Origin: Corynebacterium kroppenstedtii
GTDB taxonomy: Bacteria > Actinomycetota > Actinomycetes > Mycobacteriales > Mycobacteriaceae
Length of the DNA stretch: 64,000 bases
Reading direction: 5' to 3'
NCBI RefSeq assembly: GCF_016894245.1
Contig: NZ_CP069792.1
Coordinates: 248,001-312,000, forward strand
This document shows positions 10,669 to 29,719 of this stretch, one piece after another (positions within the stretch are counted from its first letter, which is position 1; the number at the start of each line of letters is the position of its first letter). The notes below the pieces were generated by a model. That model made no database searches, was not told the origin of the DNA, and saw only the letters and a list, made by a program, of their open reading frames with translations. Position numbers and translations under genes: made by a program.

Positions 10669-10760
10669 ACGTATGTGCTAAAATGTGTGATGATTGCGGT
10701 ACTGTCCGGAAGGGATGAATGCCATGACCGTAATTGACACAAGCACATAGAGGAGTAGCT

Positions 10761-11324: not shown

Positions 11325-11353
11325 CATCATTCATCAACTATTCGGGGGGAATT

Positions 11354-11782: not shown

Positions 11783-12840
11783 TGGGATCGTCACAGATTT
11801 GGACTGAGGTCCTTTCCCCTCAGGATTTAACGGTGTATGCCAACCACTACCTCACTGACCTTCAAGCCAACGGGTACTCCCTGTCCGCCTATTTCCCCGA
11901 TCAGCTGGTCAATGACATTTTCTTCGCCTGGAAAACCGAGGAAGACACCAACCGGCTGGCGGAGGTACGCTCCGCCGATGCGGAGACCCCTATCGGATCG
12001 ATGGGCGGTGGCCATAAGGCCACCATGCAACTGCCCCTCATTGGGCAGAAAGTCCGCATCAACGAGATGGACCAGCTGCGCAGCTTCCGGCAGGGCAATG
12101 CCGAGTTCCAGGAAGACGACATGACTAAGGCCACTGAAACGGTCGTCCGTGCGGTGGCTAACCGCGTGGAAGTGGCCCGTGGCGATGTTCTCACCACTGG
12201 CCGCGTTCGTTACGCCGAAAACGGCGCGATTGTTGATGCAGGTATTGGCCGCGATAAGGAGTTCGAGGTCACACCGAAGAAGCATTGGGACGATCCCAAC
12301 GCTCCGGCGCTTGAAGACATCATTGATTGGGCGATGGCGTATGAGGATGCTAATGGCACCAAGCCGGGCACGATCATTGCTTCACCCAAGGTTATCCAGA
12401 AGCTGCAGGTTAATGCGCAGTTCCGTGACTCTGCGAATACGACTGGTGAGTTAGCTCGCGTCTCTTCTGGGGCCATTAATGCTGTGCTCCAGGACCAGGG
12501 GCTGCCGGGTATCACCTCGTATTCGAAGTCAGTACGGGATGGGAATGGTTCTCGCCGCATCCTGGACGAGAACACCATGTACTTCCTGCCTCCTGAGACG
12601 CAATCTGGGCTGTTGGGCTATACGGTGTGGGGCCAGACTGTGGAGATGAATTCTCCGGAATATCAGCTCACTGGTCTAGGCCAGATCGCTGTGGGTGCGT
12701 GGCGTGAGAATGATCCGATGGCGTATTGGGTTCGTGCGAACTGTGCTGTCCAGCCGATTTTGACGAATCCGAATATGGCGATGGTCGCTCATGTCGTCAA
12801 GCCGGAGAGCACACGTAAAGCTGCCAAGGTCTCGAAGTAG
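11782..12840 (+). CDS. Major capsid protein (HK97-fold family)
   Basis: 352 residues. It has the expected pattern: an N-terminal arm region, EVRSADAETPIGSMGGGHK, a long spine-helix region (ATETVVRAVANRVEVARGD), ALEDIIDWAMAYEDANG, and a C-terminal domain with WRENDPMAYWVRAN. No N-terminal prohead protease target is obvious, in agreement with a separate scaffold gene. Start overlaps the decoration gene stop by one base step. It is flanked by scaffold and connectors. Confidence 0.92.
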   Translation: MGSSQIWTEVLSPQDLTVYANHYLTDLQANGYSLSAYFPDQLVNDIFFAWKTEEDTNRLAEVRSADAETPIGSMGGGHKATMQLPLIGQKVRINEMDQLRSFRQGNAEFQEDDMTKATETVVRAVANRVEVARGDVLTTGRVRYAENGAIVDAGIGRDKEFEVTPKKHWDDPNAPALEDIIDWAMAYEDANGTKPGTIIASPKVIQKLQVNAQFRDSANTTGELARVSSGAINAVLQDQGLPGITSYSKSVRDGNGSRRILDENTMYFLPPETQSGLLGYTVWGQTVEMNSPEYQLTGLGQIAVGAWRENDPMAYWVRANCAVQPILTNPNMAMVAHVVKPESTRKAAKVSK

Positions 12841-12858
12841 TCAGTGAGGGGCGGCACT

Positions 12859-13242
12859 GTGGATGTGTATTGCACGGTCAGCGATGTGACGGATCGTTTG
12901 ACGATGGAGCCTGATCGAGATGATCGCCGGTTTATTCGGGCGATGATTGATGAGGCCACTGTCGCCATTGATGCCTATATGGGTGGTCATGTGGGTGATG
13001 ATGTTCCGTCTGCTGTTCGTGTGGTGTGTGCTCGGGTTGCCGCTCGTGCGGTCAGTCGTGGCTTATCCACTGCCCCGGTGGGGGCCGAGTCGCAGTCTTT
13101 TACTGCTGGGCCGTTTTCTACCACGCAGAATTTCGGGTCGAATTCGAATGGTGGAGGCGTGTTTTTGACTGCTGAGGACAAGCGGATGCTGCGTTCTGTG
13201 GGAGGTGGCCGTCGTGGCGCGTTCACGGTCTCGTTGTACTAG
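12859..13242 (+). CDS. Head-tail adaptor (connector) protein
   Basis: 127 residues from GTG 12859, favoured because AGGGG lies about 7 nt upstream; GTG 12844 is the alternative. The N-terminus (VSDVTDRLTMEPDRDDRRF) and helix pattern fit gp6/gp15-like adaptors that bind under the portal. The C-terminal half has a flexible Gly/Asn/Phe-rich stretch and ends in a beta strand. First gene after the capsid gene, the canonical place for this function. Confidence 0.75.
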   Translation: MDVYCTVSDVTDRLTMEPDRDDRRFIRAMIDEATVAIDAYMGGHVGDDVPSAVRVVCARVAARAVSRGLSTAPVGAESQSFTAGPFSTTQNFGSNSNGGGVFLTAEDKRMLRSVGGGRRGAFTVSLY

Positions 13243-13588
13243 GTCGGGGTTTCCTCTGCCCTTCGCAGTGCAAGTGCGTCGCCGTAGGGATTCAGGGGTT
13301 GATGCGTTCGGTAACACGACCAGGTCGTGGGGGGCGCCGGAGTCTGTTCGGGTCGCTGGCTGGTGTATTGATAGCTCTGATGAGCATGGTCCTGATGATC
13401 GGGATGTTCGGCGGGTGGATTGGGCTGGTTCTTTGTTGGCTCTTCCTGGCTGTGTTTGTGCTGGGGATCGGGTGGAGCTTGGTGGTGCCTGGTTTCTTGT
13501 GGCTGATGGTGGCCATGACTACACGCATGGCCCGTGGTGGGATCCGGGTGTGGTGGAATACAAGCTTCATGTTTTCGAGGAGGCATAG
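13214..13588 (+). CDS. Head-tail stopper-like protein
   Basis: 124 residues from GTG 13214 (GGGAGG about 9 nt upstream; GTG 13205 is possible). The start lies inside the end of the adaptor gene. Beta-rich, with VRVAGWCIDSSDE and DRVELGGAWFLVADGGHDY, typical of the gp16/stopper family that plugs the connector. The frame is supported by its end meeting the strong RBS of the next gene. Confidence 0.65.
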   Translation: MARSRSRCTRSGFPLPFAVQVRRRRDSGVDAFGNTTRSWGAPESVRVAGWCIDSSDEHGPDDRDVRRVDWAGSLLALPGCVCAGDRVELGGAWFLVADGGHDYTHGPWWDPGVVEYKLHVFEEA

Positions 13589-13590
13589 CC

Positions 13591-13881
13591 GTGAGTGACC
13601 GTGTTGAGTGGAAATTTAACCATCAGTTTTTTAACCGTGTCCTCAAGGAAGATGGCCAGACACGTGCGCTTGTCGATGCCAAGGCCGAGGAGTTTCGAGG
13701 AAAAGCTGGGTCGCATTGCACAGTGCTCCCCGCGATTCAGGGGAAAACGCGGTGGCGGGCTCTTGTGGTGCCCACTCCTCACGATTCGGAGGCCTATGTG
13801 TACGAGTTGAAACATAACTCGATGCAGAAGGCCATTGGTGAGTACCCGGTCGCGACTAACCATCCAAGGAGTACAGAATGA
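13591..13881 (+). CDS. HK97 gp10-like neck/minor tail protein
   Basis: 96 residues, GTG start behind GAGGAGGC. Contains VDAKAEEFRGKAG and RWRALVVPTPHDSEAYVYELK, consistent with the short gp10-type connector proteins between stopper and tail terminator. Stop overlaps the ATG of the next gene. Assignment rests on gene order and general pattern. Confidence 0.6.
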   Translation: MSDRVEWKFNHQFFNRVLKEDGQTRALVDAKAEEFRGKAGSHCTVLPAIQGKTRWRALVVPTPHDSEAYVYELKHNSMQKAIGEYPVATNHPRSTE

Positions 13882-14255
13882 GGCATCCTACAGCCGTCGT
13901 GGTCTCGTGCCTAAAGAAATGGTTCGTCGGCTCGGAATACGAAAAGGTCCATGTTGCCACCAAAGTGCCTGACAACATTCACGGCCCTGTTGTGCGGGTG
14001 GACAGTGCGCCGCCTAATCGGGAAACGCCGATCACAGACCGGACGCGGATCATGCTGCAGGCCTACGGGGATGACGACCAGGACTGTGTCGATCTTCTGG
14101 CTGCCTGCCTGGACGGTCTAGAGATGGCGTATCGAGCTGATTTAGCCGTCATGGCGTGGGAGACCGATACCGAGCCATATAACTTTCCCGATCCAGATCG
14201 ACCGGGGGTAGCCAGGTGGCAAGCGGCCGGTACTTTGTGGACAACGTTAAGCTAA
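13878..14255 (+). CDS. Tail terminator protein
   Basis: 125 residues. Pattern of gpU/gp17-type proteins: N-terminal helix, VHVATKVPDN, VRVDSAPPN, TDRTRIMLQAYGDDDQD, then a helix (LLAACLDGLEMAYRAD) and a C-terminal strand WQAAGTLWTTLS. These proteins cap the tail tube and join it to the head. It precedes the major tail protein, the standard order. Confidence 0.75.
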   Translation: MRHPTAVVVSCLKKWFVGSEYEKVHVATKVPDNIHGPVVRVDSAPPNRETPITDRTRIMLQAYGDDDQDCVDLLAACLDGLEMAYRADLAVMAWETDTEPYNFPDPDRPGVARWQAAGTLWTTLS

Positions 14256-14267
14256 TCAATATTCATG

Positions 14268-14273
14268 TATAAT
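14268..14273 (+). promoter_or_regulatory. TATAAT box before the major tail protein
   Basis: Perfect TATAAT in the 83-bp gap between tail terminator and major tail protein, about 65 bp before the ATG. No clear -35 at 17 bp. A separate strong promoter would suit the high demand for tail-tube subunits. Confidence 0.4.
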
Positions 14274-14338
14274 ACGAGGTGGCTTGTGCTTTAAACGAGG
14301 AAAGCCACTCGGGGATTCATACTTTTGGGGGGATTCGC

Positions 14339-15331
14339 ATGGCACGTATGCGACAAAATATTGTTGTCGGCGCGCCCGAAGTGAAGAGCGGCGGGGCTGC
14401 TTGGATCGGTAAGGCCGGCATTAATCCACTTCAGACTCCGCATTCTGCGTCGATCCGGGTGGCGGCGTTACCTGCTGTCAACCGTTTCAGTCCAGCGGGC
14501 TACATCTCTGAAGATGGTGTCACGAAGACCGTGGACCGGGATACAGATAATGTTGTGGATTGGAATGGCGACACGATGGCGGTGTTGCAGTCGAGTCATT
14601 CTGTCCAGGTCAAGGCTAAGTTTCATGAGATTGTGAATGCTCATGTGGCCACGGCCATGTTGGGCGATGGGAATTTCCGTTCACGCCATGACGGCCGGTC
14701 GGTGCAGATGATTGATAATGCGACCGATACACCGTACCGGTCCTACATTTTCGATATTCACGGTGGTGATGGGGTCAAGGGCCGGCTGTTTATCCCGAAT
14801 GGTCGTGTCTCTGAGCTTGATGATCAGGTCTTTTCCCGCTCTGAGGTTGTCGGGTTTGATGCCACGATCGAGTGTTTCCCAGACGATAACGATAACAAGC
14901 TCTACACCTACATTGACCGCCGTGAGGTCAAGCGTGACGAGGACGATCGTTTCCCCGACGATGGTCTTCCGGTAGTCTCTTTGGCAGAGATCGAGGATAT
15001 TGTTCGCAACGCTTTGGACGGGCTGCCGATTTCTCCGGACTTGGTTGCTGGGGTGTTCTACTCCCTTATCGATGGTAAGGGCGGGCTGAATCTTGATTTC
15101 ATCGAAAAGCTCGTTAACCATCTGCGCCCGCTGGATGGTGTCGATGACATTCTTAAGCTGTTGGCTGATCTATTGGAGGGGGCCGATGGGGCCACGCTCA
15201 TTCACGATGTTGAGGCTTTGCCGTTTACGCCGCTGAATAGGTATCGCCGGTGGACTCAGTCTGTTGTTGATCTGCTCACCGGTGCCGGCGGACGCCAAAC
15301 CATAGATGACCTCACTGGGGGGATTCTCTGA
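14339..15331 (+). CDS. Major tail (tube) protein with helical C-terminal extension
   Basis: 330 residues from ATG 14339 (GGGGGG 8 nt upstream). Residues 1 to about 205 are the beta-rich tube domain, with NIVVGAPEVKSGGAAWIG near the start, SPAGYISEDGV and SYIFDIHG. Residues about 215-330 are an unusual helical, Leu/Asp-rich extension. The tube domain is clearly paralogous to residues 1-205 of the giant protein at 17390, which shares the GAP(E/D)V, GGxAWIG, PAGYxSxDGV and (R)LF(I/V)P blocks. Placed between tail terminator and the three extra genes. Confidence 0.85.
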   Translation: MARMRQNIVVGAPEVKSGGAAWIGKAGINPLQTPHSASIRVAALPAVNRFSPAGYISEDGVTKTVDRDTDNVVDWNGDTMAVLQSSHSVQVKAKFHEIVNAHVATAMLGDGNFRSRHDGRSVQMIDNATDTPYRSYIFDIHGGDGVKGRLFIPNGRVSELDDQVFSRSEVVGFDATIECFPDDNDNKLYTYIDRREVKRDEDDRFPDDGLPVVSLAEIEDIVRNALDGLPISPDLVAGVFYSLIDGKGGLNLDFIEKLVNHLRPLDGVDDILKLLADLLEGADGATLIHDVEALPFTPLNRYRRWTQSVVDLLTGAGGRQTIDDLTGGIL

Positions 15332-15381
15332 CCTACTCGTGTAGGCATTGTTCATAAAAAATTTTTTGGAGGTTTATTCCT

Positions 15382-16011
15382 ATGGCTGACAAAGAAAGCC
15401 TTTTGTCACAGATCACGAAGTCTCTGCGCGATCTTCAGCAGCAGGGTGGAGTGGAAAAAGATACTGCCGATTCTCTGTCGGGGATGTTCACAAATTTCAA
15501 CGGGCTGATCGATAAGTTAACTGAGTCAATCCCCCAGCAGGTCTCGATGTTGGGGCGAACAGTTAAAGATGCCAAGACGCTGGCTGATGATATCAAGCAG
15601 ATTCTCGGCGGCCCCCTAGTCTTTCCTGGGACCGGTGTTCCTGCCGCTATCAAGGGCATCACGGATGCTAAGTCAACTCTGCATGATCAGGTTGCGGCCC
15701 AATTTGGGGATATGGAAGCGCTGCCCCAGCAGGTTGCTGATCATGTTGATGAATTGTCCGTGAATGCCGGCAAGGTCGGTGCTGCCATTGATGAATTCAT
15801 CAATTCGACGTATGGCAAGAAACTATTCGACGGTATCTCTCCGGGTGATGGCTTTCCCGAACTCGTCGGTAAATTCGACCGGCTTGCAGAAGCTGATCGT
15901 AAGAAGATCACTGACTTGGTGACCAGTATTGGCACTGCGGCGAAACCGATGGGCAGCACGATTGTCGATATTTTGCGTGCCGTGCACCATGAGGACGAGG
16001 GGGCTAAGTAA
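15382..16011 (+). CDS. Helical tail-locus protein, unknown function (extra gene 1)
   Basis: 209 residues, ATG with GGAGG 9 nt upstream. Almost wholly helical and polar, with a Gly/Pro-rich break near residue 80 (GGPLVFPGTGVP) and a second near residue 155. No transmembrane segment and no recognised family. It lies directly after the major tail protein and 2 bp before extra gene 2, so it probably works with it. Normal siphophages have no gene here. Confidence 0.75.
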   Translation: MADKESLLSQITKSLRDLQQQGGVEKDTADSLSGMFTNFNGLIDKLTESIPQQVSMLGRTVKDAKTLADDIKQILGGPLVFPGTGVPAAIKGITDAKSTLHDQVAAQFGDMEALPQQVADHVDELSVNAGKVGAAIDEFINSTYGKKLFDGISPGDGFPELVGKFDRLAEADRKKITDLVTSIGTAAKPMGSTIVDILRAVHHEDEGAK

Positions 16012-16013
16012 AT

Positions 16014-17291
16014 ATGGAGTATAAGTACACTGACCGCGATTCGTACGGCGAGTTTTCTCCGTCCACTCTGATTGACCGGCTGGAGTCAGCCGGTGTCCTT
16101 CCCCATGAGCTCGCGAATGTTTTCACCCAGGCATCCAACGCTGTGCTGAACGTGTCGGATGATGCCCGCTCCAACGTCGAGCAGGCGCTAAGCACGTTGG
16201 CGAATGAGGCCGAAAGCGGCCAAAAGGTGAAAGACACGTTGAGGGCAAACCTTGAAACGGCGCTGGAAGAACCCGATCCGCTTAAGAAGGTAGCGGATTT
16301 CAAGACGGCCGCCGACGAACTGGTTGACGGTCTTGAGAAGCAGCTTCAGGATCTGGGCCTCGGTGATGTGTCTTCTGTTGAAGATGTTCGGTCGTCTGTG
16401 AAGGATTTTGCCGAGGCTCTCGATACGCTCAACGGTTCGGCACCGATCGCGAAAATCGTTGAGAAACTCCCTGGCGGTGCTCTGCCCGGACATATTCTTG
16501 AATCCTTGGCTAGCCTGCGTCAAGACGAACTCGACGACATTCGTAAGCATGTCGATACGCTCACTGATCGTGGGGCTCGAGTCGTCGCTGACCTAGCGTC
16601 CATTGGTGCAGATGAGGCCGTCCGCCAGGCCACCCGAGCTAACAAAGCCTTGACTCCCCTGCTGGCTATTGCGCTTGCTATCGGTGCCGTTGTTGGGGAA
16701 GGCGCCGAAGCGGTTAAAGCTATCGTCGATGTGGGCACTGCACTCAAAGCGGCTATCGTTAAAGGCTTCTTAACTGCAGGCAAGGGGCTTCTTGCCGCTC
16801 CGGTCATCGCCCAAGTCAAGTCGGCGAAGGCATTACCATTCGCCGTTGTTGCACTCCAGATGTTCAACCACCACGAAATCCGGATGGCTCTGCTCAATGT
16901 CTTCAATGACTTGATCATTAACACTGTCACCGCATTCAACACCTCGGTGGTGGTCAAAGCTATCCGCGCCGCTGTGGATATGCTGGTCTTGTCCACCCCG
17001 ATCCGTATCGCGGTTCGCGGCAACAACATCATGTTGATCCTGAATGCTCTCAATATTGGCCGCATCCTGTTCAACATTTTCTTGCTGACCCGCATACCGC
17101 AGATCGGTCATCTGCCGATCCGCGGATTGGGCCTGCGTGGCGTGGAAACCCTGTTTGCGGGCGCCTACACCACATGGCGTCTACTCAAAACGATCCTCAC
17201 CCCGCTTGCTTTCAAGCCAGGGGTGCTTCTGGGAGACGCTGTGGCCTTGGCCCTCGTCGCCTACCTTGTTGTCGGCGCTCTCACTGTTTAA
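16014..17291 (+). CDS. Tail-locus protein with hydrophobic C-terminal half (extra gene 2)
   Basis: 425 residues. Residues 1 to about 210 are charged and strongly helical. Residues about 215-425 alternate hydrophobic segments (LLAIALAIGAVVGEGAEAV, IMLILNALNIGRILFNIFLL, AVALALVAYLVVGALTV) with short basic turns, so this half could insert in membranes. No family is recognised. It starts 2 bp after extra gene 1 and is followed by a terminator. The C-terminal style resembles the membrane region of the giant protein, which suggests shared ancestry or partnership. Confidence 0.75.
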   Translation: MEYKYTDRDSYGEFSPSTLIDRLESAGVLPHELANVFTQASNAVLNVSDDARSNVEQALSTLANEAESGQKVKDTLRANLETALEEPDPLKKVADFKTAADELVDGLEKQLQDLGLGDVSSVEDVRSSVKDFAEALDTLNGSAPIAKIVEKLPGGALPGHILESLASLRQDELDDIRKHVDTLTDRGARVVADLASIGADEAVRQATRANKALTPLLAIALAIGAVVGEGAEAVKAIVDVGTALKAAIVKGFLTAGKGLLAAPVIAQVKSAKALPFAVVALQMFNHHEIRMALLNVFNDLIINTVTAFNTSVVVKAIRAAVDMLVLSTPIRIAVRGNNIMLILNALNIGRILFNIFLLTRIPQIGHLPIRGLGLRGVETLFAGAYTTWRLLKTILTPLAFKPGVLLGDAVALALVAYLVVGALTV

Positions 17292-17307
17292 TTGTGAGTC
17301 TGCCCTC

Positions 17308-17343
17308 GGGGGCCAGGGTACATGCCCTCGCCCCCTTCTTTTT
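17308..17343 (+). terminator. Rho-independent terminator before the giant gene
   Basis: Stem GGGGGC-CA-GGG/CCC-TC-GCCCCC with a 6-nt loop followed by TTCTTTTT. It separates the giant gene from the upstream tail genes. Confidence 0.7.
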
Positions 17344-17349
17344 ATGCCT

Positions 17350-17355
17350 TATACT
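17350..17355 (+). promoter_or_regulatory. Candidate promoter of the giant gene
   Basis: TATACT 40 bp before the ATG and directly after the terminator. The -35 region overlaps the terminator stem and is not conserved, so strength is unclear. Terminator plus promoter implies independent expression. Confidence 0.35.
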
Positions 17356-17389
17356 GGGATAGAGTGACGCGGTGCTTTCGGGGGGAAAC

Positions 17390-20300
17390 ATGCGTAATCG
17401 AAAAAATCTTGTTCTTGGCGCGCCGGATGTGCATGCTGGGGGTGGCGCGTGGATTGGGCACGCTGTTTCTAATCCGTTTGCTGTTCCCCTGTCGGCGAGG
17501 GAGCCGATTCGTCGACTACCTGGTGTTGGGCTTACCCCGGCCGGCTATGTGTCAGCCGATGGTGTCAAGGTAGATACGTCGCTGGCCTCAGAGGAGACGA
17601 AATCCTGGTCGGGGCTATCGATGAATACTGTCTCGTCGCCGGATGGCGTTACGTTGTCAGTATCTTTCATGGAGCTGGGCAATTCCGCAGTGATGAGACT
17701 CACGCACGCCGATGGGGCAGTCAAAGAGCTATTCGATTCGTCTCGTGTTCGTGTTGAAGAGCGTCTCGATGAGCCCCTTCCTTATCGTTGTTTAAACTTC
17801 GATCTCCTGTCAGCAGATGGGCAGCGTACTCGACTGTTCGTTCCCCGCGCGGTGGTCACCGATATTGATTCGCAATCGTTTAACCGCTCTGAGTTAGCCG
17901 CCTGCGTGCTCACCCTGTCATGTACGCCGGATAGTAACGGCGTGTGTTTATACAGGTTGGTGGATCGCCAACCTCAGAAGCCAACTCCACGTGACCATGA
18001 TGGACCAGATTTTGCCTTCGTTGGGCACGTGCGCGAGTGGGTCGAATACATCACTGGTGACGGACGACTTGCCAATCTTGGAGCTATCCGGGCGTCACTG
18101 TCCACGGCGCTCAGTATTATTTCCCGCATTTCTGAGCGGTCATTGGTCGATACCATCGATCAGCTGATTAATCGTGTCGAGCACACGGTCGCGGATATGA
18201 CCGACTCTGAGCTTCTCCGGCTTATTGCTGATTGGGCTCCGCGGGATCTGATTACGGGTGCGAACCTGGATAATTTCAGGGCCGCGTTCGATAATGCCAT
18301 GTCGTGGCTGCGGAGACGCACAAAGTCTATTGCCCATGCGGTGAAGAAGATTGCGACTCTCTGGTCGACTGTGGGCATCGGTGGGCTCATCGCAGGTTTG
18401 TCGAACGGTGATGTACAAAGGGCGATCGGTGACTTCATAGCGACTATTGGAGCCAATTGGCAAGAGTGGCTCACGGCTGTGATGGATGGCGATGTTGACC
18501 ACATTATTGATAATGCGATTGCGTCTGTGAACGTCCCTGCTCTCGGTGATGCGCTGGCGAATCTTGCGGAGTCTGTGGGCCTGGGCCAGTGGTCGGGCCC
18601 GATCCGGGCGTGGGCCGGGTGGCTTGGCCAAGCGTCGGCAGGGTGGGGCACGGTGGTCGGAGACTGGCTGCGTAGTTTTCTCAACAATCAGAGTGTCTCT
18701 GATTTAAACCAGTGGTTGGGTGATGCGTTTCATCGGTGGAATGAGATCGCGGGCGATTTTGTTAATCGCATGGCATCAGGTGAATTATTGGTGGATTTGG
18801 CGCGTACCGGCGGTGATTTGTATCGGGCTGCCCAAAAACTGTGGGATAGCGCTGCCAGTATTGTCCGCGAGAATTGGGGGGCGTTTAACCCCGCTAATCT
18901 GGTTAAGGCGTATAACGCGTTCGTCGGCGCTTTTGATGCAGCACAGTACGGTGATATTGCTAACCGTTTTCTTACTGACTGGGCTAATCCTCCGGCGTTA
19001 TCGAATGACTGGGCTTTATTGTCAGCTGCTCTAGCCGGTGACTTTACTCGCGGATCGGTGGCTGCTCTTGATGCGTTAAATCTCGCCCAGGTGTGGCCAC
19101 AGCTGACGGCGGCCTGGGATCAGTTTTTACAGGGGGCCAACGCGGCGCTATCTGAATTGACCGCGCAAGATTGGTTGCTGGCGTCAATCATGTTGCTCGG
19201 CCCGCTTATCACGCTGGCAGCTGGTTTTGCGTTAACGATCGCGTTGTTTGTCTTTGGGCAGCCACTTTTTGCCATACCTGTGGGATTGTCAACGCTGGGC
19301 CTGGTTATCGGCATGTGGCTTGTTGTTACCCAGTTTGTCGGTTTCAGCCTCGGCGGGGCGTTGTTGCCGTGGGCAGCGGATCTGATCGTGATTTCCCTCT
19401 TGACGGGCCATCCGTTGGCGGCGTTGTTCATTTTTTGGTCTGTGCTTAACGGGGCACGGTTTATTATTTTGGATTTTCCGTTGCTGGTGATTGCGGGGGC
19501 AGCACCGGTCACGATTAAGGCTGCTGTCCTGTTTTTAGCGTCTGCCTGGATTATCGCGCATTTAGCGGCGTTGGCAGCGGTGACGTTGCTGGTGGTCGTT
19601 AAAGCCCGTGTGTTCTTGCGGCTGACTCAACCATTTCGAATGACTGGCCTGGAGCGGGCCGTGATTGCGGCGACGGTTGCTGTGATCACGTTTGTGATTG
19701 TGGCGTTGTTTTCGTCCACAGTGTTGGGGCTTATTGTTCTTCTTGCTGCACGGAACTTAACGATCACTGGGCGATCTGCTCTGATTAACATTCTTCGAGC
19801 TGTCGCTATTGGTGGCGTTGTGCTCCCTGTTGTTGCGGCGGGGGTCATGCTGTCGCTAGTGCGTTTGCTGCGTTTTCAGCTGGCGATGATTCCTCCTGTG
19901 TCTATTGCGCTGGTCATTGTTCTTCCTCTTGCCCAGGCTCTGTTTTTCCATCGGCGTATAACGCGACTTCTCACAGCCTCAGAATTGGGAGGATTGGGGA
20001 GTGTCCTAGTGCCCCTGTTGAATTTTATTGTCTCGGTTTTCGGTTTAGCTGCAACCACTGTGCGGGCACTTATCCCCGCTCTTTTCTCTGGTACGACCGC
20101 CCTTATCACAGGCTTGGCGGCTATTCCTGCATCAATTGCATTCTATGCGTCGTCGGTGACGTGGGTGCTCTCCCAAATTGCATCGTTTACTCTATTGAGG
20201 CGGGATATTAGGCCAGTTGTGCTTGTTATTGGCAGCGTGATGGCTCTATCGGCTCTCGCTGCGGCGGCGGGGCTGGTTGCTTCTGCCCCACTGTTGGCCC

Positions 20301-22450
20301 CACCACTGACGGTGATCGTCGTTGGTGGAGCTGTTGCTCTGGGTGTCGTCGGCGCTGTTATTGCTTGTTTTACGGCAGGACAGTTGTCTTTGTTCGTGAC
20401 AGGTCTCCGTGGAGCGGCACAGCTACTACTGCGACTGGTGGTGGCATCCACCGTGGTCTCCGGCCTGTTTTTCATGTCGTCTGGGGTACTAGCAGGAATA
20501 GGACCGTTTATCTCGGCCCTGATTCTACGAGGTGTACGTGTCGCACGCTCGGCGGTATCAGTGGGGCTAATCCCTATCGTCGCTAAGATGTACCGCTTGG
20601 CTGCCCCACTTCGGTGGATTATCGATGCCAGCATTGCAGCCGCCGGGGCGGTGGTGTTTGGACTTGGGGAACTGGGTGCTCCGCTTCTTCATTGGCCCTT
20701 CCGTGGCCCGACCTACCGGTTCTGGGTTCCGCTTATTCTGGGTTTTTGGCTGGTGGTATGGAATTATCTGGCCACCGGCTACTACGCTCTATGGCTGACT
20801 TACCTAATAGCGTTGTTCTTGTCAGCATATGGCGGGTGGGTGGCCTGGCTTATAATGGGTGGAGTCACTACCCCTGCTTCCGCCCCTCAATACGCGTGGG
20901 CCACAAACTTCACGATCGCGTGGGGGTGGACCTTAGTTATTTGTCTTGTTGGGGCGGCACTGCTGATTCCGGGCCGCTGGTACCGGTATATCGTCACTGC
21001 CTTAGCGATCCCCTGGCTATTGCTCGACGCGGTTGGCCTAGACACTGTCACAACTATCGCCTCCGCCCTTGCCGGCCTCATCATGGCGCTACGAACGGCT
21101 ACTGGTTTTCTCTTCACTCCCCTCCGGGCTGTTCTTGCTGGAATTGCCGCCGCTAGCCTCGTTGCCGGGGCTCGCCTGCTGGGGTGGGGAGTTGTCATTC
21201 TCGCCGCCGATCTCTTCACTCCTATAGCTATTGCTTTAGGCGTGAATCACCGGTTCCTCATGGCCGCCATCATCACGTTGGCCTGGATCGGCATCCAGCT
21301 AGCCACACTCCCCAGGTTTATTGTCGCAGCAGCTCTGTCAGCAATAACCGGGATCAGCGGTGCCTTTATCACCGGTCGAGTCTTGCGCATACTCGCTGCC
21401 GACATGGCCGCACTCACTGGAGCGATCCCCTGGCTGCGGTCACAGAAACTCGCCCAAATGGGTGTTGTTTCCCTCGCTGTTATCCCGGTCGTCCTATTTA
21501 TCGGCATCCCGCTTACGATGGTGACTCGGCGACTAACGGCACCTGTGCGTGTACTTATTGCTATTGCTTTCACCGCAACAGTGGCCACCTTCGCTGTGGC
21601 CGCCGCCACGATTGTGCCTGGAGTCGGAGGGGCGCTCACAGCCGCTGTTGCCCTAGCCATTTTCGTCACGGTCCTTGCCCAACACCCAAGAGTTCTTCTC
21701 TCCCCGCTGGCGGGGCTTATCGCATTATCCGCAGGTCTAGCAGTCGTGGCCGCCGTACTAATTTATTTCTCTGGCCAGCCAATTCGAGCGGCCCGCCGTG
21801 TGACGATCGCGCTGCGGGCACTCATCACCCTACTAGGTGCGCCGATTGTGATGTGGGGGCTGCTGATTGTCGCTGCAGCCGGGGTGATCATTGCAGTCAC
21901 GTCTCTTATCAGCACAGGGCGCGTGGTGGATGTGCTGGTGTCTTTAGCGGTGTTGTCTGTTGTCGTGGCCGTAATGGGGCTAGTCGTTGTCACACTGCTT
22001 TTGACGGTTTTTAACCGTGCCAGTGGCCTGACTATTGCGGGAATAGTTACCGTGACAGTGCTGACGGTGGTGGGGCTTATTATCGTGTTCAGCCTAATCC
22101 CACTGTATGTTCGAATAGTGAACACTATATCGTTCCCACTGGTTGGCATCCCAGTGGACATCTTCAATATTCTGACCCGGAATTCCCTGCTGGGAAGAAT
22201 CTCGCGCCTGTGGGTTCTGGTTCATGTGCTGGCTATCGGTACAATATCTCTCGGTCTTGCGGCCTTGGTCGTGGTGTTGGGCATCGCCGGAACGATCACA
22301 GGGTTCGCTTCCACGGCTGGTATCGCCACGGTCATCGTGCTGGTCTACCTCTACGTTTTTATCCCCATCGTCGCTGTCATTATTATCGCGGCGGCATCCG
22401 CCGCGGTTGCGTATGGATGGTGGTGGTGGGTGACCTTTGGTCCTAAGTAA
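17390..22450 (+). CDS. Giant tail-tube-domain/polytopic membrane fusion protein (extra gene 3)
   Basis: 1686 residues from ATG 17390 with GGGGGGAA upstream. Residues 1 to about 205 are a second tail-tube domain, paralogous to the major tail protein (NLVLGAPDVHAGGGAWIGH, TPAGYVSADGV, RTRLFVPRAVV). Residues about 210-590 are soluble and helical, rich in Trp (for example VGDWLRSFLNN). From about residue 594 to the end there are roughly 30 or more hydrophobic segments of 17-25 residues, separated by short turns, many with one or two Arg. The last residues include four consecutive Trp. No enzyme or transporter motif is seen. The frame is intact over 5 kb with phage-like codon use. I know no described family with this architecture; a virion-borne or envelope-inserted role is inference. 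Confidence 0.85.
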   Translation: MRNRKNLVLGAPDVHAGGGAWIGHAVSNPFAVPLSAREPIRRLPGVGLTPAGYVSADGVKVDTSLASEETKSWSGLSMNTVSSPDGVTLSVSFMELGNSAVMRLTHADGAVKELFDSSRVRVEERLDEPLPYRCLNFDLLSADGQRTRLFVPRAVVTDIDSQSFNRSELAACVLTLSCTPDSNGVCLYRLVDRQPQKPTPRDHDGPDFAFVGHVREWVEYITGDGRLANLGAIRASLSTALSIISRISERSLVDTIDQLINRVEHTVADMTDSELLRLIADWAPRDLITGANLDNFRAAFDNAMSWLRRRTKSIAHAVKKIATLWSTVGIGGLIAGLSNGDVQRAIGDFIATIGANWQEWLTAVMDGDVDHIIDNAIASVNVPALGDALANLAESVGLGQWSGPIRAWAGWLGQASAGWGTVVGDWLRSFLNNQSVSDLNQWLGDAFHRWNEIAGDFVNRMASGELLVDLARTGGDLYRAAQKLWDSAASIVRENWGAFNPANLVKAYNAFVGAFDAAQYGDIANRFLTDWANPPALSNDWALLSAALAGDFTRGSVAALDALNLAQVWPQLTAAWDQFLQGANAALSELTAQDWLLASIMLLGPLITLAAGFALTIALFVFGQPLFAIPVGLSTLGLVIGMWLVVTQFVGFSLGGALLPWAADLIVISLLTGHPLAALFIFWSVLNGARFIILDFPLLVIAGAAPVTIKAAVLFLASAWIIAHLAALAAVTLLVVVKARVFLRLTQPFRMTGLERAVIAATVAVITFVIVALFSSTVLGLIVLLAARNLTITGRSALINILRAVAIGGVVLPVVAAGVMLSLVRLLRFQLAMIPPVSIALVIVLPLAQALFFHRRITRLLTASELGGLGSVLVPLLNFIVSVFGLAATTVRALIPALFSGTTALITGLAAIPASIAFYASSVTWVLSQIASFTLLRRDIRPVVLVIGSVMALSALAAAAGLVASAPLLAPPLTVIVVGGAVALGVVGAVIACFTAGQLSLFVTGLRGAAQLLLRLVVASTVVSGLFFMSSGVLAGIGPFISALILRGVRVARSAVSVGLIPIVAKMYRLAAPLRWIIDASIAAAGAVVFGLGELGAPLLHWPFRGPTYRFWVPLILGFWLVVWNYLATGYYALWLTYLIALFLSAYGGWVAWLIMGGVTTPASAPQYAWATNFTIAWGWTLVICLVGAALLIPGRWYRYIVTALAIPWLLLDAVGLDTVTTIASALAGLIMALRTATGFLFTPLRAVLAGIAAASLVAGARLLGWGVVILAADLFTPIAIALGVNHRFLMAAIITLAWIGIQLATLPRFIVAAALSAITGISGAFITGRVLRILAADMAALTGAIPWLRSQKLAQMGVVSLAVIPVVLFIGIPLTMVTRRLTAPVRVLIAIAFTATVATFAVAAATIVPGVGGALTAAVALAIFVTVLAQHPRVLLSPLAGLIALSAGLAVVAAVLIYFSGQPIRAARRVTIALRALITLLGAPIVMWGLLIVAAAGVIIAVTSLISTGRVVDVLVSLAVLSVVVAVMGLVVVTLLLTVFNRASGLTIAGIVTVTVLTVVGLIIVFSLIPLYVRIVNTISFPLVGIPVDIFNILTRNSLLGRISRLWVLVHVLAIGTISLGLAALVVVLGIAGTITGFASTAGIATVIVLVYLYVFIPIVAVIIIAAASAAVAYGWWWWVTFGPK

Positions 22451-22473
22451 TCGAACATAAGTACTGCTATGAT
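22448..22473 (+). promoter_or_regulatory. Candidate late promoter/operator before the chaperone genes
   Basis: The 11-mer TAATCGAACAT (22448-22458) is identical to the one at 6335-6345, and is followed by TATGAT (22468-22473) about 100 bp before the chaperone ATG. The 120-bp gap also holds a small hairpin (TACCT/AGGTA). A shared late-gene regulator would explain the exact repeat. Confidence 0.4.
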
Positions 22474-22570
22474 GTCAGTAGACCTAATGGCGTTTCATCA
22501 GGAAACTACCTGTATCTGCCTGTTAGGTAAAAGATAGAACTCGCATTCGACATAGGGGGGAAGGTCGCAT

Positions 22571-22864
22571 ATGGCCGCCAAGAAGACAACGAAAAAGTCA
22601 GACCAGGCTCACGATGACTGGTTTGATTACACCACCCACAGCGGAGAATCGATCAGCCTGCCACCCATCGGCTCGGTCATTACCGCTGGGGATCGTCGCC
22701 GGGCGAAACGCGATGGTGTGGACGATGAAGAGTTTTCATGGATCATGCTGGAACGGGCAGCTGACAAGGCTGCCGAGGGAACTCTGGACATTATTGACGC
22801 CATGCAGATGGACGAATTCAACACGTTCATGAAAGCGTGGAGCGACGGGGGCGACAAAAGCTAG
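22571..22864 (+). CDS. Tail assembly chaperone (gpG-like, short form)
   Basis: 97 residues. Lys-rich start, then HSGESISLPPIGSVITAGD, an acidic helix region (DDEEFSWIMLERAADKAA) and a C-terminal helix. It is the expected small acidic protein directly before the tape measure. The following frame continues without its own RBS, as in gpG/gpGT pairs made by programmed frameshifting. Confidence 0.8.
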   Translation: MAAKKTTKKSDQAHDDWFDYTTHSGESISLPPIGSVITAGDRRRAKRDGVDDEEFSWIMLERAADKAAEGTLDIIDAMQMDEFNTFMKAWSDGGDKS

Positions 22865-23285
22865 CCTGTCGGAGATTATCTCTCTTATCGACGCTGTCGA
22901 TCGGGATCCGCACTTTTCGATGGCTGTTGAAAGGGAATTGATCGAAGTCGGCGTGCGATGGCGGTGGGTCAACGACGGTAGTGACCGAGTGTCTTGGGAC
23001 GATGTGATCGCTTTGATCGCTACTGCGGGCCCCGATTCGGCTATCGTGCGTGATGCTCGCAAGGATGAGTGGGAGTGGGATTTAACCAACCAGTTACTCG
23101 CGCATATTGCTGATCAACAGGCGATGAGCGCCTGGGATGGTAAGGGTGCACGGCCGAAACCGATTCCTCGACCTGGGGTGGATGGTAAGGAAATGGAGAC
23201 GGCTGGTGTGAAACCGGAGGGCTTGTCGAAAGCTGAGATGGACGAGTGGCTGGGCGATGATTGGTCTGGCGTTAACGGGGGCTAA
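22848..23285 (+). CDS. Tail assembly chaperone, frameshifted extension (gpT-like)
   Basis: The +1 frame is open from 22833 to 23285 and reads LSEIISLIDAVDRDPHFS then WRWVNDGSDRVSWDDVIALI, the usual second half of a tail chaperone. The first ATG (22920) has no RBS. The two frames can join by a +1 slip at GGG-GGC (22847-22852) or AAA-AGC (22856-22861) just before the TAG of the short form. The fusion would be about 238 residues. The exact slip site is inference. Confidence 0.7.
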   Translation, partial: GATKASLSEIISLIDAVDRDPHFSMAVERELIEVGVRWRWVNDGSDRVSWDDVIALIATAGPDSAIVRDARKDEWEWDLTNQLLAHIADQQAMSAWDGKGARPKPIPRPGVDGKEMETAGVKPEGLSKAEMDEWLGDDWSGVNGG

Positions 23286-23287
23286 AA

Positions 23288-26200
23288 ATGGCGGCGAACT
23301 TTGATGTTGGCACCGGATGGGTGAGCATTGTCCCCAAGATGGGCGATTTCTCCCAGGTTCGTAAACAATTGGATAAGGCAATAGTTGCTCCGTCCCAATC
23401 GTGGGGCGAGCAGATGGGTAACAAGATCACCTCTGGCTTGAAGAAGACGGTGAAAGTCGGGGCGATTGCTGTTACCGCTGCCGCCGGTGTGAGTGCTGGT
23501 AAAGCATTCTCTGATGGGTTCAACCGTTTAGCGTCGACTGATCGGGCCGAGAAAGCTCTTGAGGGTTTGGGCTATAAGGGTAATGAGATTACCCAGATCA
23601 TGGGAAACGTTAATAAGTCTATTGAGGGCACGTCGTTTCTCATGGGTGATACTGCTCAGGTTGCGTCGGTGATGTTGGGCTCGGGTATTAAACCGGGCCA
23701 GGAGCTTCAAGACACGCTGAGTCATGTTGCTGATGCTGCCGCGCATTCGAATACGTCGATTAGTGAGATGGGGTCGATCTGGTCGAAGGTTGCTGCTCGT
23801 GGGCATGTCGACGGTGAGGTGATGGCCCAGCTCATGGACCGTGGTATCGGTCTGCAGGATCAGCTCGCCAAGCAGATGGGCGTGTCCAAAGATGCGGTGG
23901 CGGATATGGTCAGCTCTGGGAAGGTGTCGTTTGCTGATTTCTCCCAGGCTATGGATTCCATGTTCCATGGGGCGGCACAGAAGCAGCGCGAAACGTTCCA
24001 GGGGTCTATGGAATATATGAAGGCTATGGCCTCCCACGTCACCGCTGAGATCATTCAACCGTTATATAACGGGATGATCCCGGTGTTTAACGCCATTTCT
24101 GATGGTTTCGCGGGTCTTGAAGGCAAGCTTGGCCCGATTGCGCAGCAGATTAGTAATGCGATAGCCCCGGTCTTTGAGCATTTGGCTAACGATGTTATCC
24201 CCGCAGTGTTTTCCGCAATAGATAGTATCAATGTTGATACTGCCATGGGGGCTTTTGGGCCGCTCAAGGAGGGGCTAGCCCAAATGGGCCCCTTGTTAGA
24301 GCAGCTTGCTCAGGCCGCTATCCGTGTGGTGGCCGCCTTGGCCCCGGCGATTCCACCACTGGCAGCTGCACTCGTGGCCATTGTGAATGGGACACTGCCT
24401 GCGCTAACCGCACTATTGAATGCGCTGGTCCCGATCATTACTTCGGTGATTGTTCCCGCGATTACCGCGTTAAGTAACGAGTTGGCTAAACACCCACAGT
24501 TAGCGGCGGCGGCTGCTAACGGTTTTATGCTCTGGGCTGAAGCATTCGTCCCATTGAATAGGGGTTTTAAGGCTGTTAAGGCGGGGGCCGGCATTATGGA
24601 AGCGTTCGGGCCCCGCATAGGAATAGTTGTGAAGTCCCTGTTCAATATCGGAAATGCGCTCAAGAGCGTTATCGGTGTCGGGCGCATCATTTTTACTGGC
24701 CTGAGGACACTGCCTGCGCTGATGAGCGCGATTTTCAGCACTAACCCTGTTGGTGTCATCATGACCGCCATCGGGCTTCTCATCACCGGCATCACCTTGT
24801 TTTTGACGAAAACTCAAGCTGGTCAAGCGATCTTGGCGTCAGTGGGTAGCGCTTTGCAAGCCTTCTGGGAATGGCTGCAGCCAGTCTTTGAGCCAATCGG
24901 CACGTGGTTGTCGACAGCATGGTCGGCTATTTCCTCGTTCTTCTCTCAGGCTGCGAGCGTGATCGGCACTATCGTGCCGTATGTTGTGTCGGTGCTTCTA
25001 ACGCCGATAATGATTCAGGTGGAAATAGCGAAGGCCGCTATTCTTCTGGCGTTCAACTTGATTAAAGCCGGATGGGATTTGCTGGTCACCGGAATGGTCG
25101 CATTGTGGGAGTCGGTTTTGCACCCCATGTGGGACTTCATGGGCATGGTTGTGAGCACCCTGTGGTCGGCGGTACTCCAACCAATTTTCTCTCTGATCGG
25201 TGCGGCGTGGAACATGCTACTCAGCGGCATGGCGGCTGTCTGGAATGGTGTTTTACAGCCTGCCTGGAACCTTATGGGGACGGTGCTACAGGGCCTGTGG
25301 AATGGTATCTTGCAGCCAATATTCACCGCGATTGGTGCCGTCTGGTCTGCTGTCGTCAATGGGATTAAAGCAGTCATTGATAATGTTTTGATTCCCGCCT
25401 GGCGCGGAATGTCCGATTTTATCTCGATGATTGTGGATAGGTTTGTGAAACCGGCGTTCGACAGGATGAGCGACGGGGTTCGGACTGTTCAGCATTGGTT
25501 CGAGGTTGCGGCTGATGGTATCAAGCATGCGTGGACGTCGGTGTGGGACACTATTCGTGATATTGCAAAGAAGATTGCTGGTGTTGCCTACAATAACGCG
25601 ATTCTGCCTGCCTGGAATGCGATTGCGAATGTTACGGGTGTGCAGAAACTCGATCGTGTGAATTTCGCTACGGGTGGTGTGATGCCCGGCTATACGCCTG
25701 GCCGTGATGTGCATACGTTCTTCTCCCCCACCGCCGGGATACTCAACCTGTCTGGCGGTGAGGCGGTGATGCGGCCGGAGTGGACTCGTGCTGTGGGCGG
25801 GCCTGCTGCTGTGGCGCGGATGAATGCGATGGCGCGGTCTGGTCGTGGTAGTGGCTTATCGGTGGGGTTTGCTGATGGTGGTGTTATTGGTGGTATTAAG
25901 CATGCTGCGGGTAAGGCCTGGGAGGTCACCGATGATGTGTTGGATAAGGCGATGGAGCTTGGTAGTGATTTCGCTAATGCGGCTAAGCGGTTGTTCTTCG
26001 GCAAGATTGATGCGGTGAAGGGCCGTCTGGGTATTGGTCGTGGTACTAGCTTGGCTAAGTCGGTGGCGCCGGCATATCTGACTAAGGGTGCTGATAATGC
26101 GTGGAATTGGCTAAAGGAAAAGGTCTCAGAGGTTGCTAAGAAAGTGAAAGAGAGGTTGAGCGTCGGCGGCAACGTTGAGATGTATCGCGGGCTTGTCGAG

Positions 26201-27058
26201 CGGCTTCTTCGTGAAAAAGGGCAGCCTGTTTCCCTTGTTAATAGTGTTTTGCGCCGTATGCAGCAAGAGTCTGGTGGTAATCCGCACGCGATCAATAATT
26301 GGGATTCGAATGCGGCTAAGGGGACGCCGTCGAAGGGTCTTATGCAGACTATTGATCCAACATTCCAGTCGTATAAAGACCCTGGATATGACGATATTTG
26401 GGATCCGGAATCCAATATTCGCGCATCGATGAACTATGCGCTGGCCACGTATGGTTCGCTGTCGGCGGCATATGATCGTGCCGGCGGCTACAAGCTTGGT
26501 GGTGTTCTTCCAGCGTTTCTGCGTGATTCAGGTGGTGTTCTTCCCAATAATTCTATTGCTGTGAACACATCTGGCGGTAGTGAGTGGGTTTTGTCTTCCC
26601 AGCAGATGCACGATTTTGCTCAAGGTATGACTGAGGCTTGTCAGCATATGGATGAGACTGCTCACGCGTTTGCGGATGGTGTCGAGGCGTGGCTGAACGG
26701 TGAGGAAGACCGCATTGGGGCGCCGATTGAATGGGGCGCGCAATTCCTCGGAGACATTCTCTCCGATGTGACCGACGATCTTGGCTTACCCTGGGGGATT
26801 GACGGTACAAAGGCACCCGACATCCTTGATAACCAAGGACGGGTCAAAGTCGCTGTCGCGGGTCCTGCCGATGATCCTGGCCGAAGCGTGCTCCCGCCCG
26901 TGGAGGTGCACGTCAATATGAACGGGGACAACATGACTGTGTCATCGGATGATGTGCGGCGTGGGGTCAATCAGGCTTTGGCTGATTATCAGCGCAGGAT
27001 TGAGGCTTTAGAGCGGGGCGTGCAGATCAATACGTTTACAACGCCAATGGTGGTGTAA
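23288..27058 (+). CDS. Tape measure protein with lytic transglycosylase domain
   Basis: 1256 residues. The N-terminal part (KMGDFSQVRKQLDKAIV) and residues 60-270 are the helical minor-tail region. The middle has long hydrophobic segments and Trp-rich pseudo-repeats of the type LWNGILQPIFTAIGAVW, repeated about four times at residues 600-700. Near residues 960-1065 is an SLT domain: VLRRMQQESGGNP with the catalytic Glu, then SKGLMQTIDPTFQSY and a YGSLSAAYDRAGGYK end. The C-terminus is GGSEWVLS, then helical. It sets tail length and digests peptidoglycan on entry. It is the longest tail gene apart from the giant protein. Confidence 0.93.
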   Translation: MAANFDVGTGWVSIVPKMGDFSQVRKQLDKAIVAPSQSWGEQMGNKITSGLKKTVKVGAIAVTAAAGVSAGKAFSDGFNRLASTDRAEKALEGLGYKGNEITQIMGNVNKSIEGTSFLMGDTAQVASVMLGSGIKPGQELQDTLSHVADAAAHSNTSISEMGSIWSKVAARGHVDGEVMAQLMDRGIGLQDQLAKQMGVSKDAVADMVSSGKVSFADFSQAMDSMFHGAAQKQRETFQGSMEYMKAMASHVTAEIIQPLYNGMIPVFNAISDGFAGLEGKLGPIAQQISNAIAPVFEHLANDVIPAVFSAIDSINVDTAMGAFGPLKEGLAQMGPLLEQLAQAAIRVVAALAPAIPPLAAALVAIVNGTLPALTALLNALVPIITSVIVPAITALSNELAKHPQLAAAAANGFMLWAEAFVPLNRGFKAVKAGAGIMEAFGPRIGIVVKSLFNIGNALKSVIGVGRIIFTGLRTLPALMSAIFSTNPVGVIMTAIGLLITGITLFLTKTQAGQAILASVGSALQAFWEWLQPVFEPIGTWLSTAWSAISSFFSQAASVIGTIVPYVVSVLLTPIMIQVEIAKAAILLAFNLIKAGWDLLVTGMVALWESVLHPMWDFMGMVVSTLWSAVLQPIFSLIGAAWNMLLSGMAAVWNGVLQPAWNLMGTVLQGLWNGILQPIFTAIGAVWSAVVNGIKAVIDNVLIPAWRGMSDFISMIVDRFVKPAFDRMSDGVRTVQHWFEVAADGIKHAWTSVWDTIRDIAKKIAGVAYNNAILPAWNAIANVTGVQKLDRVNFATGGVMPGYTPGRDVHTFFSPTAGILNLSGGEAVMRPEWTRAVGGPAAVARMNAMARSGRGSGLSVGFADGGVIGGIKHAAGKAWEVTDDVLDKAMELGSDFANAAKRLFFGKIDAVKGRLGIGRGTSLAKSVAPAYLTKGADNAWNWLKEKVSEVAKKVKERLSVGGNVEMYRGLVERLLREKGQPVSLVNSVLRRMQQESGGNPHAINNWDSNAAKGTPSKGLMQTIDPTFQSYKDPGYDDIWDPESNIRASMNYALATYGSLSAAYDRAGGYKLGGVLPAFLRDSGGVLPNNSIAVNTSGGSEWVLSSQQMHDFAQGMTEACQHMDETAHAFADGVEAWLNGEEDRIGAPIEWGAQFLGDILSDVTDDLGLPWGIDGTKAPDILDNQGRVKVAVAGPADDPGRSVLPPVEVHVNMNGDNMTVSSDDVRRGVNQALADYQRRIEALERGVQINTFTTPMVV

Positions 27059-27083
27059 CACCAATTATCCAGGGGGGCTGCTG

Positions 27084-27956
27084 ATGAATATTCAGCTTTT
27101 AGACTATCGGGGGCAAACATGGCACCTCGCCGGGGACGATGAGGGCACCGAGGGGGTAACACTCGGCAAGATCAGTAACACCGTCGGCAACATCAGTGAC
27201 CAAAAGGATAAACACCAATCACGTTTCCAGTCACCAAGCCTAGATATCGGTGAGCTTGACCCTATCGAGCCGACACTCACCGTGCAGATCACCACAACAC
27301 CCGAACTCACCGTCGAGACAGTCACCCGTCGGTTCCTTAACGGCTTAGACTTTTTCAAACCAGCCAAACTCATCGTCACGGAATCTCGCCAACCATCACT
27401 GTGCCTCTTCGTGCATCTTGCAAAACCGGTAGGCCTGCCCGAGGACACCACCGCCATAGACGGCACCACCATGGAGGTTGAACTTACCGCTAAGGACGGC
27501 TGCTGGTTCGGCCCCCAACATAGCGGCACCGGCATTGTAGCCATCGAAAACACCGGGGATATTCCACTATGGCCAACTGTTCGCTGGCGTGGCATGGCAG
27601 CACGATTCACCGAAGACCGCAACGGGCTTATCGTGCTCCCGCCAGCCTTAGGCCGATCAGGACTGACGTATTACACAGACCCGGCCACCGGGGGCCTTGT
27701 CACCGACAACCAGGGCTACCCGAACCATACAGCCTGGGCCACCATGCGCGGCGTGGCCTGGACACGGCCAGTCATGCCAAAAGACGGCACAGCAGTGGAG
27801 TGCCACCATTGCCAAGTGCTGTGGCGAAACCGTTACCTTTCACCATGGGCGCAATCAGGGGGGATAATTTCTAATGCAGGAACATCAAATAACGCAAATG
27901 GCCGCGATTGGTCAGAGGCGACGGGACGACCATACGCCGTTCGTCTATTTGACTGA
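27084..27956 (+). CDS. Distal tail protein
   Basis: 290 residues, ATG with GGGGGG 7 nt upstream. The N-terminal domain (MNIQLLDYRGQTWHLAGDD, LTVETVTRRFLNGLDFFKP) and beta-rich C-terminal domain match Dit-type proteins that join the tube to the tip. It follows the tape measure, the standard place. The last 83 bp overlap the start of the next gene in another frame. Confidence 0.75.
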   Translation: MNIQLLDYRGQTWHLAGDDEGTEGVTLGKISNTVGNISDQKDKHQSRFQSPSLDIGELDPIEPTLTVQITTTPELTVETVTRRFLNGLDFFKPAKLIVTESRQPSLCLFVHLAKPVGLPEDTTAIDGTTMEVELTAKDGCWFGPQHSGTGIVAIENTGDIPLWPTVRWRGMAARFTEDRNGLIVLPPALGRSGLTYYTDPATGGLVTDNQGYPNHTAWATMRGVAWTRPVMPKDGTAVECHHCQVLWRNRYLSPWAQSGGIISNAGTSNNANGRDWSEATGRPYAVRLFD

Positions 27957-29472: not shown

Positions 29473-29527
29473 AATATAAGTTCGAACGAGTAGACTTCAT
29501 GTTGTATAAAACAAGGGGGTGGAGCAC

Positions 29528-29719
29528 ATGGGGGTGTGCCTAAGCGAAGATACGCCCGCGGGGGCATGGGTTGTAGGAAGACCCATGCTAAATGCGGTTA
29601 ATGAGGCGCACGCATTGTTTTTCGGCCAAGACGACTACACCACAGGACGATCAGCGATGGAAGCGCTGATCCCCACACTACACACGTGGCTACCGAACCT
29701 AAGTTCGATCAACAAGTAG
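29528..29719 (+). CDS. Small hypothetical protein between tail and lysis genes
   Basis: 63 residues from ATG 29528, with AAGGGGG and GGAG upstream. Soluble, no motif recognised (contains HALFFGQDDYTTGRSAMEAL). Preceded by a gap with TGTATAAAA, a possible -10 region. It ends 13 bp before the endolysin, so it is likely in the lysis operon. Confidence 0.55.
   Translation: MGVCLSEDTPAGAWVVGRPMLNAVNEAHALFFGQDDYTTGRSAMEALIPTLHTWLPNLSSINK

Follow-up and report, generated by a model that had tools for sequence, protein, structure and literature searches.

A second tail-tube domain fused to a large hydrophobic region in a Corynebacterium prophage

Besides its ordinary major tail (tube) protein, a prophage of Corynebacterium kroppenstedtii encodes a protein of 1686 residues (hereafter the fusion), whose N-terminus proves, on sequence comparison, to be a diverged paralogue of that tail protein, and whose remainder consists of a Trp-rich, predicted helical part followed by about 30 consecutive hydrophobic segments. 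Our tentative reading, held at somewhat less than even confidence, is that the fusion serves as a second, specialised tail-tube subunit of low copy number, which couples the tail to a bacterial membrane.

The analysed DNA (the window) is a stretch of 64,000 nucleotides from a genome of 2.48 Mb in a single contig, and all coordinates are given relative to this stretch (Table 1). The prophage that it contains looks complete, with matches for terminase, portal, capsid, tail genes, endolysin and integrase (phrog_1, 49575-50660). An extra 21-bp match at 5436/50696 lies beside its 40-bp direct repeat, the right copy of which overlaps a tRNA-Glu gene (50735-50810). The fusion gene belongs to a tail operon in which tail terminator, major tail protein, chaperones, tape measure protein and two minor tail proteins were matched in PHROGs. 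Its ORF is open from 17372 to 22450, with an ATG at 17390 behind a good ribosome-binding stretch and 1686 residues up to the stop codon. The ORF of the major tail protein opens at 14279 and its likely ATG is at 14339; queries with this protein were started six codons upstream, at 14321. Two further loci of the prophage were noted in passing: a gene directly upstream of the large terminase (6344-6847) occupies the slot where a small terminase would be expected and matches a minor-tail-protein PHROG (phrog_226), and two adjoining genes downstream of the endolysin region (31703-32587 and 32612-33535) encode secreted-looking proteins with a GDSY-type motif at their starts, which we take to be SGNH hydrolase-like. 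Both could possibly act as esterases on the envelope, in a lineage that lacks Pks13.

Table 1. Features of the prophage, the tail-gene region and the fusion gene, in window coordinates.
Feature	Coordinates	Strand	Basis or remark
Prophage	5436..50758	.	40-bp direct repeat 5459-5498 / 50719-50758; integrase, terminase, portal, capsid matches
Tail terminator	13878..14255	+	phrog_123, E 1.3e-14
Ordinary major tail (tube) protein	14339..15331	+	phrog_117, E 2.1e-29; PF25681, 28 bits (cut-off 27)
p209, first cassette gene, no hydrophobic segment	15382..16011	+	found in the same 7 fusion-bearing genomes, 20 tested
p425, second cassette gene, three hydrophobic segments in C-terminal half	16014..17291	+	7 fusion genomes among 242, plus one chance match
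GC-rich hairpin followed by TTCTTTTT, terminator-like	17308..17343	+	read in both phage lineages
TTATACTGGG box, putative -10 promoter element	17349..17358	+	TTATACT identical in aligned rows
Ribosome-binding stretch GGGGGGAA	17380..17387	+	read 5' of ATG 17390
Fusion residues 1-205, second tail-tube domain	17390..18004	+	profile, alignment, fold
Fusion residues 206-590, Trp-rich, predicted helical	18005..19159	+	composition; low-confidence prediction
Fusion residues 591-1686, about 30 consecutive hydrophobic segments	19160..22450	+	hydropathy counts; low-confidence model
Two tail assembly chaperone genes	22571-22864, 22920-23285	+	phrog_1326
Tape measure protein with SLT transglycosylase domain	23288..27058	+	PHROGs and Pfam

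A preliminary description of this DNA, made from the letters alone, had assigned the N-terminus to the tail-tube fold because of sequence blocks shared with the major tail protein, and profile match, profile-profile alignment and structure-based comparison all bear this assignment out. The blocks are present in both proteins and in the same order (GAPDV/GAPEV, GGGAWIG/GGAAWIG, PAGYVSADGV/PAGYISEDGV and RLFVP/RLFIP). The two proteins align at 37% identity over residues 2-208 (E 5.3e-35) and profile to profile over residues 2-193 (99.7%, E 2.3e-26), a similarity that chance does not explain. The fusion matches phrog_117 ‘major tail protein’ (E 9.6e-15, residues 2-192), its PHROGs matches at E up to 0.1 being limited to two major tail protein families, and the tube domain displays the beta fold of tail tubes and Hcp. 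It is not listed for the Pfam tail-tube model PF25681 at E up to 0.5. Siphovirus tail tube proteins are compact, with roughly 200-350 aa, as are the tube proteins found here, and the 1686 aa of the fusion lie outside this range. Among 51 tube-domain columns that are conserved in other Corynebacterium tail tubes, the fusion keeps 24 and the prophage's own tail protein 33, which implies that the capacity for self-polymerisation may have been lost from the fusion. As a separate observation, the major tail protein of fusion-bearing phages carries a C-terminal extension of ~130 aa (14960-15331 in the window), while the other Corynebacterium tail tubes compared are shorter or have different C-terminal ends.

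The long remainder of the fusion matched no family over the cut-off in the databases searched. The 385 residues of the middle part, 19 of them Trp, are predicted to be helical at low confidence, and the 1096 residues of the hydrophobic part (GRAVY 1.47) include 55 Lys/Arg and 14 Asp/Glu. About 30 or more hydrophobic segments had been claimed for the latter, and 30 non-overlapping stretches of 19 residues indeed exceed 1.6 on the Kyte-Doolittle scale, with 27-32 in seven relatives. A looser segmentation raises the number to 38 in the fusion (34-40 in four relatives), and a topology computed by dynamic programming has 36 (28 and 35 in two relatives); since the three counts differ, the exact number of segments is uncertain. 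The run of four Trp that had been pointed out at the C-terminus is not conserved, position 1678 alone being often Trp (4 of 7 divergent rows). A structure model of residues 560-1686 is all helical and, with a mean pLDDT of 40.5, too poor for a fold search, and profile-profile comparison revealed no convincing similarity between the two halves of the hydrophobic part. Outside the tube domain no transporter or enzyme was matched over the cut-off in PHROGs, Pfam, NCBIfam and PDB sequences, in agreement with the earlier impression that such motifs are missing; residues 206-1686 gave no PDB sequence match at E up to 0.1 and none over the cut-off in Pfam and NCBIfam. Toxin and effector families were not matched by the C-terminal part in PHROGs, Pfam and NCBIfam either. 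Homology of the helical part to the C-terminus of the tail protein, to the tape measure protein or to the neighbouring gene products p209 and p425 was considered and rejected, none of the comparisons being convincing.

A long helical region in a tail protein calls to mind tape measure proteins with hydrophobic segments, and the prophage's own tape measure protein has five such segments by the same count. The fusion could accordingly be imagined as a second internal tail protein, whose helical and hydrophobic parts lie in the tail lumen in a tape-measure-like manner. This would be consistent with the abundance of Trp in the helical region (11 of the 19 are kept in all 7 divergent rows) and with a weak match of p425 to a tape-measure profile (phrog_58, E 1.2e-5). 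However, the fusion starts with a tube domain, has about 30 segments instead of five, and matches neither a tape-measure profile nor, convincingly, the tape measure protein itself in profile-profile comparison. Moreover, a normal tape measure gene exists at 23288; it follows the tail assembly chaperones, whereas the fusion gene precedes them, and the spacing of Trp in the helical region is irregular, in contrast to the recurring 8, 11 and 15 of the tape measure protein. We consider a location in the lumen very improbable.

A protein search returned 18 relatives among 7991 scored candidates, 16 of which cover 95-100% of the fusion at 56-98% identity, and a profile-based search returned 17 among 7986. 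All three relatives that carry a name are from Corynebacterium; C. pseudokroppenstedtii MC-17X and C. parakroppenstedtii MC-26, which belong to the closest named relatives of the window, encode the fusion at 97-98% identity. Eleven sequences were taken into the alignment. The suspicion that no described phage family has this architecture held up: tblastn against 50,697 phage records at E up to 1e-5 gave no match to more than 12% of the fusion, and all 28 matches, in lactococcal and streptococcal phages, fell on the tube domain. None of the literature titles and abstract openings listed describes such an architecture. In IMG/VR, searches by single query and by profile gave the same two loci. 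Aside from this, IMG/VR contig 2634166511 has its tape measure gene (15899-19664) split into two overlapping frames, the window's being intact.

Any match was obtained in 22 of 242 Corynebacterium genomes, of which seven encode the fusion and 15 the tail-tube domain alone, in frames of 201-313 aa. The fusion is full or nearly so in five genomes (G000, G126, G137, G145 and G176). In G239 it is cut by the end of a 3.9 kb contig, on which p425 is split into two frames (L038 561-1834), and in G088 the frame is broken near residue 500 (L039/L040, G088:C1 ~1882050-1889310). In the latter genome ~0.9 kb separate p425 from the fusion, compared to ~0.1 kb in the window, and p425 is 72% identical to the window's, with head and other tail genes at 89-100%; long gap, diverged p425 and broken frame together suggest recombination and decay. 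Wider scans gave tube matches in 61 of 401 genomes of the family, 17 of 394 of the class and 19 of 396 of the phylum, the sets from genus to phylum being overlapping samples. The longest frame with a tube match other than the fusion was 562 aa in these scans (G389); it was rejected as a second long tube fusion, since its extra length is an unrelated frame upstream.

Conservation and dN/dS rule out that the ORF arose by chance or as an annotation artefact. For each part of the fusion, dN/dS is <0.3 in every pair compared, namely 0.04-0.20 when close relatives are compared and 0.06-0.25 across lineages, at a dS that approaches saturation. Between the window and G176, identity is 82% in the tube part, 74% in the helical part and 48% in the hydrophobic part, the fastest-evolving portion of the fusion; for comparison, the major tail protein is 85% and the tape measure protein 68% identical. 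The tube part thus evolves like the tail protein of the virion, and, judged from these sequences, the hydrophobic part appears to behave like a loosely constrained membrane domain. A recent duplication of the major tail protein is not supported, as the tube domains of the fusions group in a single clade on a long stem (2.06 changes per column). In the tree this clade stands beside the tail protein of the same phages, with modest support (93/80) and a warning for long branches.

The fusion gene does not travel alone. Together with p209 and p425 it occupies one site, between the tail tube gene and the chaperone genes. In two relatives that lack the fusion, G011 and G233, neither cassette gene was found at this site, and the chaperone match follows ~0.4 kb and ~1 kb past the tube domain, respectively. 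The cassette thus resembles a single-site insertion of 7 kb. For p209, no family was matched over the cut-off in PHROGs, Pfam and NCBIfam. It aligns over nearly its full length with the N-terminal half of p425 (16014-16620), and the two may be old duplicates; the alignment is marginal, 12 of 500 shuffles reaching its score. A candidate relative of p425 in G205 was dismissed as a chance match, being a single weak match on a 10.3 kb contig that matches none of the genes of this prophage at E below 0.1.

Just upstream of the fusion gene, a GC-rich hairpin with a T run is followed by a TTATACT box in each copy read. The hairpin folds much better than shuffled sequences in three diverged copies (z -4.3, -6.5 and -5.1), and hairpin and T run are also present in the diverged G088 copy. 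TTATACT is identical in six of six aligned rows from two phage lineages and was also read in L005 and G088. The TTATACTGGG box has no second exact copy in the window, and its five one-mismatch copies are no exceptional number (8 of 100 shuffles). A generic scan of 13500-30000 listed neither hairpin nor box; with nine promoter-like sites against 11.7 expected and 21 terminator-like sites against 16.0, its output is near chance overall. Given this result and near-copies of the box that are not rarer than chance, both terminator and promoter are putative. Rfam gave no match in the same interval.

A conserved terminator-like hairpin and a promoter-like box directly 5' of a gene are reminiscent of a moron. 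The fusion might hence be an accessory membrane protein, expressed from its own promoter and perhaps in the lysogen, whose cytoplasmic tube-like domain interferes with incoming phages or serves as a decoy for tail-sensing defences, and the rapid evolution of the hydrophobic part would be in line with such a function. Several observations speak against it: PADLOC assigned the fusion to no defence family, the 120 bases 3' of the gene show no T-run terminator, and the tube part changes at about the slow pace of the virion's tail protein. Furthermore, the constant companions p209 and p425 have no comparable promoter-like gap, as they are separated by 2 bases and the generic scan found a 5-pair hairpin alone (15332-15345) upstream of p209. 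An accessory role of this kind therefore seems improbable to us.

The simplest reading of a constrained tube part, a loosely constrained hydrophobic part and an upstream hairpin is a special tube subunit that joins one end of the tail to a membrane. The hairpin would insulate the fusion gene from the highly expressed tail-tube gene, so that its copy number is low. In the phage-producing cell, the hydrophobic domain would insert co-translationally into the cytoplasmic membrane and leave tube domain and linker in the cytoplasm, and the tube domain would stack on or cap one end of the major-tail-protein tube, probably as one ring of six. This ring could dock the tail, during its growth or once complete, to the membrane, with p209 and p425 as putative partners in the complex, and might leave with the virion after lysis and act again at the membrane of the next host. 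We favour insertion in the producing cell, since hydrophobic segments of this length should generally enter the membrane during their synthesis. Linkage to p209 and p425, conservation of the fusion, its low dN/dS, the tail-protein-like evolution of its tube part, its tail-tube identity and the hairpin with TTATACT box were counted for docking; the loss of conserved columns, the missing PF25681 listing, the failure of the generic scan to report the hairpin and the damaged carriers (the fusion in G088, p425 in G239) were counted against it. The distribution of charges was also counted against this reading, the test being weak: compared to shuffled order, charge does not alternate between loops as expected from the positive-inside rule (z -1.3, -0.9 and -0.5 in three sequences), and in the same test two controls passed (z 3.4 and 1.7), one failed (-0.5) and four of eight other hydrophobic ORFs reached z >1.5.

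Delivery in virions ranks next, although we judge it rather unlikely. In this scenario, the tail carries six copies, whose solubility is maintained by chaperones, p209 or p425, and whose hydrophobic helices enter the cytoplasmic membrane of the next host, where they make or gate a channel for DNA. The position of the gene in the tail operon, with the tail assembly chaperone genes directly downstream, and a tube domain conserved like the tail protein are consistent with it, and helices without clear topological charge bias would, as a weak point, suit insertion after assembly. On the other hand, some 6500 residues of hydrophobic domain per six-copy ring must remain soluble outside the tube, and long hydrophobic segments should generally engage host membrane insertion during synthesis. 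Passage through the mycolic-acid envelope, which had been proposed as the purpose of such an assembly, is at odds with the hosts. The mycolate synthase tested, Pks13, was searched in 14 genomes; it is over the cut-off in three of the seven fusion hosts (G145, G176 and G239) and below it in the other four (G000, G088, G126 and G137), which have weak matches of 35-46 bits at a cut-off of 2100. The fusion gene thus does not track the presence of mycolates, and a specificity for mycolate-bearing hosts is rejected, which was counted against virion delivery. According to PMC8733736, and to a title cited in PMC3658426, mycolic acids are absent from C. kroppenstedtii.

Returning to the docking of tails by a second tube subunit, a bolder version is that the ring is itself an integral membrane assembly, in which six copies place some 180 hydrophobic segments in the cytoplasmic membrane around or beside the tube pore and thereby form a phage-encoded conduit for tail docking or genome entry. 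We regard this as doubtful, and no tail tube is known to us whose own subunit embeds it in a membrane.

Comparison with known systems indicates in what respect the fusion is unusual. The tail tubes of mycobacteriophages Douge (gp13) and Bxb1 (phrog_117/PF25681) have solved chains of 265-300 aa that form the tube, whereas the fusion is encoded by a second, separate gene with 1480 extra residues, most of them hydrophobic. It also differs from ordinary polytopic transporters or channels in matching no known membrane-protein family over the cut-off in Pfam and NCBIfam. Hcp-toxin fusions of type VI secretion share with it the combination of a tube-type subunit and a C-terminal functional domain; they belong to a contractile system and carry toxin domains, in contrast to the siphovirus-type tail genes and the lack of a toxin-family match here. 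More than 350 Hcp fusions in 17 Enterobacteriaceae species are mentioned in PMC10433429, and the Douge tail tube carries an Ig-like extension. Both cases show that a tube subunit can bear an additional domain at its C-terminus. Apart from the fusion and its relatives, our searches of phage records, genomes and literature, the latter as far as titles and abstracts reach, turned up no second tube subunit with a large hydrophobic domain.

The way in which siphophage DNA passes the cytoplasmic membrane of Gram-positive bacteria, and the identity of the channel-forming tail protein, have yet to be settled. A tube domain covalently joined to a membrane-type domain makes this question of DNA entry directly testable in one gene, which comes with two linked genes of no assigned family, p209 and p425. 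The fusion would also represent, for the tail tube of a non-contractile phage, what Hcp fusions represent for type VI secretion.
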